A stretch of 33,051 nt of DNA. It comes from Deltaproteobacteria bacterium (GTDB lineage Bacteria; Desulfobacterota; Syntrophia; Syntrophales; UBA2210). How positions within the stretch are numbered: position 1 is the stretch's first letter; each line of letters opens with the position of its first letter. Shown here piece after piece: positions 27,097 to 33,051 of the stretch. The DNA is taken from the NCBI GenBank assembly GCA_026388515.1, contig JAPLJO010000134.1:1-33051 (forward strand), written 5' to 3'. Under the pieces are notes generated by a model, which saw only the letters and a list, made by a program, of their open reading frames with translations, was not told the DNA's origin and ran no database searches. A program made the translations under genes and the position numbers.

Positions 27097-27139
27097 CACA
27101 TTCACACCCGCAGGGGCAAGGCATGCCGTGCCTCTACAA
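27097..27139. repeat. Palindromic repeat, degenerate copy
   Basis: Over 43 bases it matches the copy at 30731-30773 at 37 positions. The core is an imperfect dyad around GGCATGCC with flanks CAGGGGCA and TGCCTCTA. Conserved flanking bases (CACATTCA...CCCG before, ACAA after) show that the two copies are one repeat family and not two chance palindromes. Confidence 0.8.
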
Positions 27140-29144: not shown

Positions 29145-30050
29145 CTACAACTCCTCCGGTGTGAATGCCACCACCTCGTCTATCGAAGCGCTCCCCGTGA
29201 AGAGCATGACAAAACGGTCAATGCCGAAGGCGATGCCGGCGGCCTCCGGCATGGAAGCGAGCGCTTCAAGAAATTTTTCCGGCTCAGGGTATGCCGCCAT
29301 TCCCCGCGTACGGCGATGCTCCCGTTCACTCGCGAAACGCTCTTTCTGTTCGCCGACATCGGTGAGTTCCGAAAAGGCATTGGCAAGCTCGAGCCCGCCG
29401 ATATACAGCTCAAAGCGCTCGGCGAGCGTGGGGTCGTCGGCCTTCCTGCGTGCCAGCGATCCCAGCGCCACGGGATAATCAAAGAGGAACGACGGCTTCC
29501 CGCACCCGAGATGCGGCTCAATTGCGGTTACCATAAGTTCATCGAAGCGGTCGTTTAGAATCGCCTCTTCCGCGGAAATTCCCGCATAGCGAAGGAAGGC
29601 GTCACTGACGGCGATGCGTTCCCAAGGGCGCGCAAAGTCAACCGATACCCCGCGGTAGTCCAGCTTCCTTCCTAATCCAAGCGCCTCCGCCGTGAATGTT
29701 ACCATTTCCTCGCACTCATCCATGAGACTCACGTAGTCCGCACCCGTCCGGTACCATTCAAGGAGGGTAAATTCTGGAACGTGGAGCCTTCCGCACTCGC
29801 CGCTGCGGAAGCATTTTGATATCTGGAAAATCTTATCAAAGCCTGCGGCGAGAAGCCGCTTCATGCAGAGCTCGGGAGAGGTATGGAGAAACCAGCCGTC
29901 GGAGGGAACGGCGTCAATGTGGGATTCCGGTGCCAGTGTGGGAACGCGCAGCGGTGTTTCGACTTCGATATATCCCCGCTCATCGAAAAAGCGGCGGATC
30001 GCCTGGATTACTTTCGCACGGATTCGAAGGTTGTGTTCACGGGAAGAAAT
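29145..30050 (-). CDS. epmA: EF-P lysine lysyltransferase EpmA (PoxA/GenX), probable ATT start
   Basis: 301 residues if begun at ATT (30050-30048). The protein is a class II lysyl-tRNA-synthetase-like enzyme without anticodon domain that attaches (beta-)lysine to EF-P. The core is complete: RRFFDERGYIEVETP (motif 1), HTSPELCMKRLLAAGFDKIFQ, HVPEFTLLEWYR (motif 2 region), GGLELANAFSELTD, and GIDRFVML (motif 3). Between the efp stop (30074-30072, same frame) and the first conserved residues there is no ATG, GTG or TTG. ATT at 30050 follows GAGGTG by five bases, an excellent ribosome site, and gives the usual N-terminus length. The first ATG (29864) would delete motif 1. AUU starts are known in infC and pcnB. 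It lies 21 bases after efp, its substrate gene; epmB is not in the window. Confidence 0.9.
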   Translation of the reverse strand: MSSREHNLRIRAKVIQAIRRFFDERGYIEVETPLRVPTLAPESHIDAVPSDGWFLHTSPELCMKRLLAAGFDKIFQISKCFRSGECGRLHVPEFTLLEWYRTGADYVSLMDECEEMVTFTAEALGLGRKLDYRGVSVDFARPWERIAVSDAFLRYAGISAEEAILNDRFDELMVTAIEPHLGCGKPSFLFDYPVALGSLARRKADDPTLAERFELYIGGLELANAFSELTDVGEQKERFASEREHRRTRGMAAYPEPEKFLEALASMPEAAGIAFGIDRFVMLFTGSASIDEVVAFTPEEL

Positions 30051-30071
30051 CTCTGCACCTCTGCGTTTCTC

Positions 30072-30632
30072 TTATTTCACACGAGTGAGGTAGTCGCCGG
30101 TTCTCGTATCGATGCGGATTTTTTCTCCCTCCTCAACAAAGGGCGGCACCTGCACGACGTACCCCGTTTCCACCGTGACGGTCTTCATTTTCCCCGTCAC
30201 CGAATCCCCCCTTGCCCAGGGGTCCGCCTGCGTGACCACCAGATCAACAGAATTGGGAAGGGTGATGCCGAGTGGCCTCATCCCGAAAAAGAGAATCTCC
30301 ACGTCGAGATTTTCCATGAGAAAATTTTTTGCCTCCCCCACATGGTCATCGGTGAGGTGTATCTGCTCGTAGGTGTCATTGTCCATGAAGCAGTATCCGC
30401 TGTCGTCCCGATAGAGGTACTGCATGTGCTTTTCCTGAAGGTCCGCCTCCTCGAAGGAATCCACGGAGCGGAAGGTGCGGTCGAACTGGGAGCCCGTAAT
30501 CATATTCCTCAGCCTGCACCGGTAGAGGGCCTGTCCCTTGCCGGGCTTCACGAATTGAAAATCGACGACTACGTAGGGTTCCCCGTCAATCTGAATCTTG
30601 AGGTTCTTTTTAAGGTCGCTTGCGGAATACAT
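30072..30632 (-). CDS. efp: Translation elongation factor P
   Basis: 186 residues, normal EF-P length with three beta-barrel domains. EF-P enters the ribosomal E site and rescues peptidyl transfer at polyproline. VKPGKGQALYRCRLRN holds the modification loop; Lys32 in PGKGQ is the residue that EpmA would lysylate (Lys34 in E. coli numbering). RTFRSVDSFEEADL, MQYLYRDDSGYCFMD and TVTVETGYVVQVPPFVEEGEKI are standard. The C-terminal DTRTGDYLTRVK ends at a TAA. The ATG has GGGAG about nine bases upstream. Directly downstream and in the same frame is epmA. A sigma-70-like promoter is at 30674-30702. Confidence 0.97.
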   Translation of the reverse strand: MYSASDLKKNLKIQIDGEPYVVVDFQFVKPGKGQALYRCRLRNMITGSQFDRTFRSVDSFEEADLQEKHMQYLYRDDSGYCFMDNDTYEQIHLTDDHVGEAKNFLMENLDVEILFFGMRPLGITLPNSVDLVVTQADPWARGDSVTGKMKTVTVETGYVVQVPPFVEEGEKIRIDTRTGDYLTRVK

Positions 30633-30730: not shown

Positions 30731-30773
30731 CATATTCAAGCCCGTAGGGGCACGGCATGCCGTGCCCCTACAA
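30731..30773. repeat. Palindromic repeat, intact copy
   Basis: The core 30744-30771 is a perfect 28-base palindrome: arm GTAGGGGCACGGCA followed directly by its reverse complement. Flanks match the copy at 27097-27139 (37 of 43 positions overall). The intact stem upstream of efp could fold as a cruciform or an RNA hairpin. Similar palindromes are dispersed in many environmental bacterial genomes. Confidence 0.85.
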
Positions 30774-30873: not shown

Positions 30874-33051
30874 TTAGAAAATACTCCAGCCTCCGTCCAC
30901 TTCCTCGTAACCGATCTGATCATACCACACGGAACTGTCGTTGCCCGAGCGGTCTTTCAGCTTGACCTGGAGTGCATCAGGTGCGCGTGACGAATTAGTC
31001 ACAACGATAGTTCCACTATCGAAGCACACCCATTGTTCCTGCTCATCCAGAGGGGGCAGGTCGCTGACAGTGACACCATTTGTGAACTTGGTAACACCAT
31101 GGATGTTCGCGCGATAGGCGACACCTGTCACTGTTGTCGTCCACGGGTTCTCTCCATCGGGATCAAAGGTGATCGTGCTGCCCACCTGGATTCCCGCAGA
31201 TTCGTGCAGCTCAATCATCGGGTACCCGAATGCAAGCACCGTGGAGAAGGTAATGCACTCATTAACATAATCATCCTCGTCTACAGTAATCGCCCCACCG
31301 TCAACGGTAATTGTGTCTGGATCACTGGCCGTATTAATATCGATGATCGTCCTCACAATTGTGGCATCGCTTATGTCAAAGACTACTGTGTCGCCAATGC
31401 TGAATCCACTTGCGTTATACACATCAACGACGTTATCACCCGAGTTGTCATTGTATACAGTCGTTGACGCACCACTTGGAGTGATACCTTCAACAGCTGT
31501 TCCCGCAGAATACGCGGATTCGGTAAAGTAAGGATATTCCAGACCAACTCCATCGAACTCACGGTAATTGTTGCTTCCGGTACCGGCAACATATGCCTTC
31601 TCAGGAGCCAGGATAACCGAACCACCGTCTATGTAGTGGTCTTCTGCTGACGCATCCTCAACAAGTATAAAGGGCGTATGGTAGCAAGTGCCTCTCTGGA
31701 CATATGTCTCAGTTCCGTCATAACCGGAGTTGACAGGTCCATTGAAGAATACCTTTGCACCTTCTGCAAGAATATCTTCGCAAATGCCGCGGTCCACAGC
31801 AATCCTGCCGGTATTGTTCAGCAGTTCACAATGGTTCCCACCGCCGTAGTGATTACCTTCGGCATCAGTAATCGTTATCGGATCGCCGGCGGCAAACCCG
31901 CCAACGGACTCTGTGAAGAGGTAGTATCCGTATTCATAACCCGGACCCAGCAGTACGTTTCCGCCGCAATACCCTCCGAAATCTTCCGTCAGTGTCGTTG
32001 CGATGGCCGGCTCAAGGTCAATCATGATGTACGCGCGATTGCTCGGGTAGGGCACACCCTGGCCGTCGACAAGCGCGAGGTCGGGATCATCCCAGTATGC
32101 CCTGGCTACCCTGAAGCTTCCGCTGGAGGCCCATGCACCATACACATTAGGTTCCTGAGCCATAAGCTCCACATCCTTCAGAGGTTCCTGCGAGAGGATG
32201 GCGATTTCCGTCTCATCATATTTCGTGCATGAATCGAATTTGTCCCGATCAGGCCCGAAGAAGTAGGGATAGAACCATGCATCGGCAGGGTAATTGTCGC
32301 CTTTCCCCGCAATCACCGGTCCCAGGTTGTCCTTCAGGGCAAGACCCACAATGGTCTTGTCATAGTTCGGATCCTGGGCAATGCCGTTGATGTTCTTGGG
32401 CATGACAACAATCTGGACCGTGTTCCCGGCATAGAAGGGCGCCCACATTTCCCAGGGATTTTCATACGCCCAGCCCTCCGGTAAAGGCTCGCAGTAGAAT
32501 GCATTCAGATAGTCATATTCTCCCTCTCCATACACGGTAATATTGGCCTCAACAAACTGACCGTCATTATATGTGTAGGTGACATCCCAATCGTCAACCA
32601 ACTGCCACGCGGTGTCGCTGTCTTTAATGTAGACGTCATAGCCGTAGCAGTCCGCGGCAGCCGCCCAGGAGAGCCTGATTGTGCCGTAATCCTGAATCCA
32701 GTCACTGGATTCAGCATATTCAAACGCATCCTGGTCGTCGTAGAACACTTTCCAGATATCGTTCCAGTCAACTACGTAAGTGTCAAACGCGTCGAAGCCC
32801 TGAATGTCGATCGCCGGCATGATGGAGGCAAGTGTCGAGGCGTTCGGGTCGTAGATGCTGAATTTGGCATAGTAGTCGTTGCCGCACCCTGCGTCATCGC
32901 CCGAGAATCCTACCACGTTGTCAGCATTCACCTCGAAGTAGTACTGGTTCCCCGTCGGTGTTAACGTAGTCATGGGTTTCAGTACGAAGAGATAGTTCCC
33001 CGTGTTGGAGACCAGCGTCAGCGGAACCACCGACCCGTCGCCCGCATACAG
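30874..33051 (-). CDS. Secreted acidic beta-rich protein, N-terminus beyond window edge
   Basis: 725 residues are visible and the frame is open at the right edge, so the start, any signal peptide and probably more domains lie outside. The sequence is rich in Asp, Glu, Gly and Tyr and poor in Lys, as in extracellular proteins. About residues 120-230 (TIRLSWAAAADCYGYDVYIKD...TVQIVVMPKN) look Fn3-like. Later parts have repeated short beta motifs (ASGFSIGDTVVFD, SAGIQVGSTITFDPDG) resembling hydroxyl-rich surface-layer or appendage modules. I recognise no family or catalytic motif. Several Cys pairs (GYCGGN, NHCELLNN, GICEDI, GTCYHT) could form disulfides outside the cytoplasm. A strong terminator follows. 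Confidence 0.85.
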   Translation of the reverse strand: MYAGDGSVVPLTLVSNTGNYLFVLKPMTTLTPTGNQYYFEVNADNVVGFSGDDAGCGNDYYAKFSIYDPNASTLASIMPAIDIQGFDAFDTYVVDWNDIWKVFYDDQDAFEYAESSDWIQDYGTIRLSWAAAADCYGYDVYIKDSDTAWQLVDDWDVTYTYNDGQFVEANITVYGEGEYDYLNAFYCEPLPEGWAYENPWEMWAPFYAGNTVQIVVMPKNINGIAQDPNYDKTIVGLALKDNLGPVIAGKGDNYPADAWFYPYFFGPDRDKFDSCTKYDETEIAILSQEPLKDVELMAQEPNVYGAWASSGSFRVARAYWDDPDLALVDGQGVPYPSNRAYIMIDLEPAIATTLTEDFGGYCGGNVLLGPGYEYGYYLFTESVGGFAAGDPITITDAEGNHYGGGNHCELLNNTGRIAVDRGICEDILAEGAKVFFNGPVNSGYDGTETYVQRGTCYHTPFILVEDASAEDHYIDGGSVILAPEKAYVAGTGSNNYREFDGVGLEYPYFTESAYSAGTAVEGITPSGASTTVYNDNSGDNVVDVYNASGFSIGDTVVFDISDATIVRTIIDINTASDPDTITVDGGAITVDEDDYVNECITFSTVLAFGYPMIELHESAGIQVGSTITFDPDGENPWTTTVTGVAYRANIHGVTKFTNGVTVSDLPPLDEQEQWVCFDSGTIVVTNSSRAPDALQVKLKDRSGNDSSVWYDQIGYEEVDGGWSIF

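Follow-up and report, generated by a model that had tools for sequence, protein, structure and literature searches.

A candidate AUU start codon for epmA directly behind efp in a Syntrophales genome

In the window analysed here (the whole 33,051-nt stretch of contig JAPLJO010000134.1, assembly GCA_026388515.1), epmA follows efp on the same strand and lacks an ATG, GTG or TTG codon ahead of its conserved N-terminus. On balance, the cell appears to use an AUU codon at position 30050 as the real start of the gene, most likely as a substitute that recently took the place of the usual ATG in this lineage. A control from the same genome, the AUA start of infC, shows that this lineage uses a near-cognate start and that comparison among relatives can detect one that is under selection. 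The ATT of epmA does not behave like it, and seems to be an isolated peculiarity, or else a mistake in the assembly, and not a control switch that has been conserved.

The efp–epmA locus and its initiation site

The identity of epmA is well supported by the NCBIfam equivalog model TIGR00462, with 333.9 bits (cut-off 286.9) and an alignment that starts at residue 8 when numbering from the ATT; structural relatives of the protein are found in the PDB (3g1z, 3a5z and 3a5y). The genome carries a single copy, with a lysS-like gene as the runner-up match. As the frame is intact at approximately 64–65% identity to the two nearest relatives, the gene looks to be under selection. The EF-P encoded next to it has an intact PGKGQA loop with the modifiable lysine (VKPGKGQA), and a search of the genome for the partner enzyme EpmB returned one aminomutase-family match, which scored below the EpmB cut-off (Table 1). 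Upstream of efp lie a 718-aa ORF without a Pfam match (30874-33030, minus strand) and a perfect 28-nt palindrome, GTAGGGGCACGGCATGCCGTGCCCCTAC (30744-30771), of which a degenerate copy occurs at 27110-27137 and no exact copy was found in the other loci fetched.

Table 1 Coordinates of the features discussed, in window positions unless a locus is given
Feature	Position	Strand	Remarks
efp, elongation factor P, 186 aa	30072..30632	minus	TIGR00038, 247.1 bits (cut-off 185.8); three Pfam EF-P domains
efp stop TAA	30074-30072	minus
epmA open frame	30071-29145	minus	same frame as efp, intact
epmA, EF-P--(R)-beta-lysine ligase, 301 aa with ATT as start	29145..30050	minus	TIGR00462
ATT, proposed AUU start of epmA	30048..30050	minus	proposed from the sequence
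Shine-Dalgarno-like GAGGTG	30056..30061	minus	6-nt contiguous match to TAAGGAGGTGATC, in register
Spacer from efp stop to ATT, 21 nt	30051..30071	minus	in frame with both genes; without ATG/GTG/TTG in the epmA frame
Out-of-frame GTG	30056..30058	minus	only nearby canonical codon that one missing base could bring in frame; 4-nt Shine-Dalgarno match
infC AUA start	L074:1495-1497 (G000:C105)		extended Shine-Dalgarno AGGAGGTGAC; without ATG/GTG/TTG at the site
Lysine-aminomutase-like gene	L253 (G000:C93:12128-13090)		265.7 bits, below EpmB cut-off 369.3

The in-frame codons that follow the efp TAA are GAG AAA CGC AGA GGT GCA GAG ATT TCT TCC CGT GAA CAC AAC CTT CGA ATC. Reading them one by one bears out the initial annotation, which had found no ATG, GTG or TTG in the stretch from the efp TAA to the conserved residues of EpmA. 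A canonical start first appears in the epmA frame at 29864, as an internal ATG; beginning there, the product would have 239 aa and lack the conserved N-terminus. Past the efp stop, the ATT at 30050 is the one near-cognate start codon reached before the conserved region, the ATC codons at 30023 and 30008 falling within the conserved region itself. The Shine-Dalgarno-like GAGGTG also lies where it had been placed, 5 nt before the ATT, with 7 nt between the last G of GAGG and the codon. In sample contigs of the genome totalling 506 kb, 1.4% of ATT triplets have a match of at least 6 nt in front of them at a usable distance, compared with 1.3% of random positions, such that the chance of finding one at 30050 is p about 0.014. 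These frequencies assume a standard anti-Shine-Dalgarno sequence; the 16S gene was not found in the assembly, so its 3′ end could not confirm this, and the infC site AGGAGGTGA fits the assumption. There is little RNA structure over the ATT site (z +1.47), a point in favour of initiation at AUU, and nothing unusual enough to suggest a structural control element at the epmA start, and that idea was rejected.

Start codons of epmA in relatives and the infC control

The focal genus is represented by this genome alone, and epmA was searched for in the family (19 genomes) and the order (155 genomes), with start regions read in 103 relatives (92 genomes of the order plus 11 additional contigs). All epmA genes that are not truncated at a contig end begin with ATG, GTG or TTG, mostly at a position other than that of the ATT. 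The expectation that ATT, or another non-AUG codon, would be kept among relatives was accordingly not borne out, with no non-canonical start among the non-truncated genes of the 103 relatives examined. Three apparent exceptions were rejected: L092 and L134 are both cut by contig ends, and L046 has an ATG at +5, just beyond the counting range (residues are numbered with the ATT as +1 and the preceding codon as 0). Nor do relatives carry an ATG one base away from the ATT at the same position, the finding that would have pointed to a sequencing error or a frameshift. Their starts usually lie 5–7 residues upstream; most common is an ATG at residue −5, six codons ahead of the aligned ATT, a position at which this genome has AAA. 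The distance from the efp stop to the aligned position also varies among relatives (17, 20, 24, 25, 26, 28, 34 and more nt), and in several of them the start codon of epmA overlaps the stop codon of efp (TAATG or ATGA type), pointing to translational coupling of the two genes there. A literature search on epmA start codons returned nothing relevant.

At the aligned position itself, relatives usually have an internal leucine codon (CTG/CTT), so an internal isoleucine (ATT) would also be natural there, and this counts against an AUU start. The two nearest relatives (64–65% identity) have an ATG at −5 (L007) and either a TTG at −7 or a GTG at +1 (L008); the latter aligns with the ATT and has practically no Shine-Dalgarno match. 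Across all 103 relatives, the match at the chosen epmA start is at most 5 nt, an approximate comparison since these starts were picked by a simple rule. The Shine-Dalgarno match at 30050 thus exceeds that of every other epmA start examined, and a site that stands out in this way is expected if it compensates for a weak codon.

In this genome, infC has an AUA start preceded by AGGAGGTGA, and all of the infC genes identified across the family (18 of 18; further loci L254-L270) retain AUA behind GGAGGTG. Were the ATT of epmA a regulatory start kept by selection, one would expect the same pattern as for infC; instead, it is found in one genome only. The two sites are alike in pairing an AUN-type near-cognate codon with a strong, well-spaced Shine-Dalgarno sequence, but differ in that the infC start is family-wide.

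Competing explanations for the missing start

AUU is read by the initiator tRNA with a third-base mismatch that IF3 disfavours, and AUU starts are IF3-sensitive, which would apply to epmA if its AUU is real. Under the favoured explanation, translation of epmA would begin at AUU 30050, with GAGGTG, 7 nt upstream, placing the 30S subunit on the codon, and ribosomes terminating on efp 21 nt upstream might reinitiate there. Initiation would presumably be weak, with low expression and sensitivity to IF3. The usual ATG would have been replaced recently in this lineage, with the better Shine-Dalgarno sequence offsetting the poor codon. The proposal of an AUU start in the initial annotation therefore stands as the most probable reading, resting on the missing canonical codon, the strong Shine-Dalgarno sequence and its correct spacing, but it lacks conservation: there is no second case among the epmA genes examined, and one genome in the genus.

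There is a lesser though real chance that the oddity lies in the assembly or consensus, with one wrong, missing or extra base concealing an ordinary start (for instance the GTG at 30058, or a canonical codon now read as ATT). The genome is a draft of 175 contigs with 4.84% contamination and the sole member of its genus, all non-truncated relatives have a canonical start, and a single missing base would put GTG 30058 in frame at about the right N-terminal length. However, that GTG has only a weak, 4-nt Shine-Dalgarno match, and the position of the commonest ATG of relatives, AAA here, is more than one base away from ATG. The error rate of the assembly also does not appear to be high, as none of 104 gene-like ORFs compared with two relatives was split in a frameshift-like manner. 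The same comparison, which was filtered for overlap against antisense shadow ORFs, gave 17 raw start-less candidates that were classified by eye; most were rejected as alignment overhangs of 5–12 residues, shadow frames or contig-end cases, and of the genes not at contig ends only epmA clearly lacks a start. A 765-aa ORF at L156:1-2334 (G000:C4) begins 39 nt from a contig end, with an in-frame stop ahead of it, whereas the homologue extends much further upstream; the start of this ORF is probably a contig-end artefact. What separates the two explanations is that initiation at AUU accounts for the missing canonical codon and the good Shine-Dalgarno sequence together, while a sequence error leaves the latter to chance (about 1–4%, with codon choice allowed for).

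The remaining alternatives are considerably weaker. It is improbable that epmA has been newly crippled by natural loss of its start and yields little or no full-length EpmA. A missing start in an otherwise intact gene is what a very recent loss would look like, but the frame is fully open without further lesion, EF-P retains its PGKGQA loop, and a good Shine-Dalgarno site faces the ATT. We consider it very improbable that selection maintains the AUU as an IF3-controlled switch holding EpmA below EF-P. IF3-sensitive starts that set protein amount are known, such as the GTC start of sigR in Streptomyces (PMC5472188), but no relative examined shares the ATT start, against 18 of 18 for the infC AUA in the family, and relatives tend instead to couple epmA to the efp stop. 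Least probable of all, with a very slight chance, is read-through of the efp TAA, giving a minor EF-P–EpmA fusion, or a frameshift from GTG 30058. The two genes do share a frame with one TAA between them, but the frame relation varies freely among relatives, making the in-frame arrangement a one-in-three coincidence, and the stop context has no suggestive feature. Similarly, inspection by eye revealed no slippery heptamer that could lead from GTG 30058 into the epmA frame.

Parallels with known non-AUG starts and implications

Non-AUG starts of infC serve IF3 autoregulation, with AUU in E. coli and AUA in S. aureus, and we know of no feedback of EpmA on IF3. The pcnB gene of E. coli is an enzyme gene with an AUU start; by analogy, epmA may likewise be expected to have low, IF3-sensitive translation. 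In S. aureus, the non-AUG starts of infC (AUA), cvfC1 (AUU) and ccpN (AUA) have extended Shine-Dalgarno sequences, and those of cvfC1 and ccpN are conserved among relatives and were shown by ribosome profiling (PMC13009471). The epmA site resembles cvfC1 and ccpN in combining a non-canonical start with a longer-than-usual Shine-Dalgarno match, but theirs are conserved and profiled, while that of epmA is known from the sequence of one genome. The GTC start of sigR has been shown experimentally, its regulatory elements are conserved across Streptomyces, and this rare start in an operon of interacting partners has been proposed to set their stoichiometry (PMC5472188). Although epmA, like sigR, has a rare start codon and sits next to the gene of its interaction partner, a role in stoichiometry would be speculation for epmA, in contrast to the experimental demonstration for sigR.

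An ATT in one genome without conservation says little about regulation, and the family's infC, with its conserved AUA, illustrates an IF3-type start better. Were IF3 control of EpmA via AUU nevertheless true, it would link EF-P modification to the level of an initiation factor in this lineage. If the AUU is real, gene finders restricted to ATG, GTG and TTG would truncate EpmA to the internal ATG and lose its conserved N-terminus, and epmA would be one more entry on the short list of near-cognate AUU starts.
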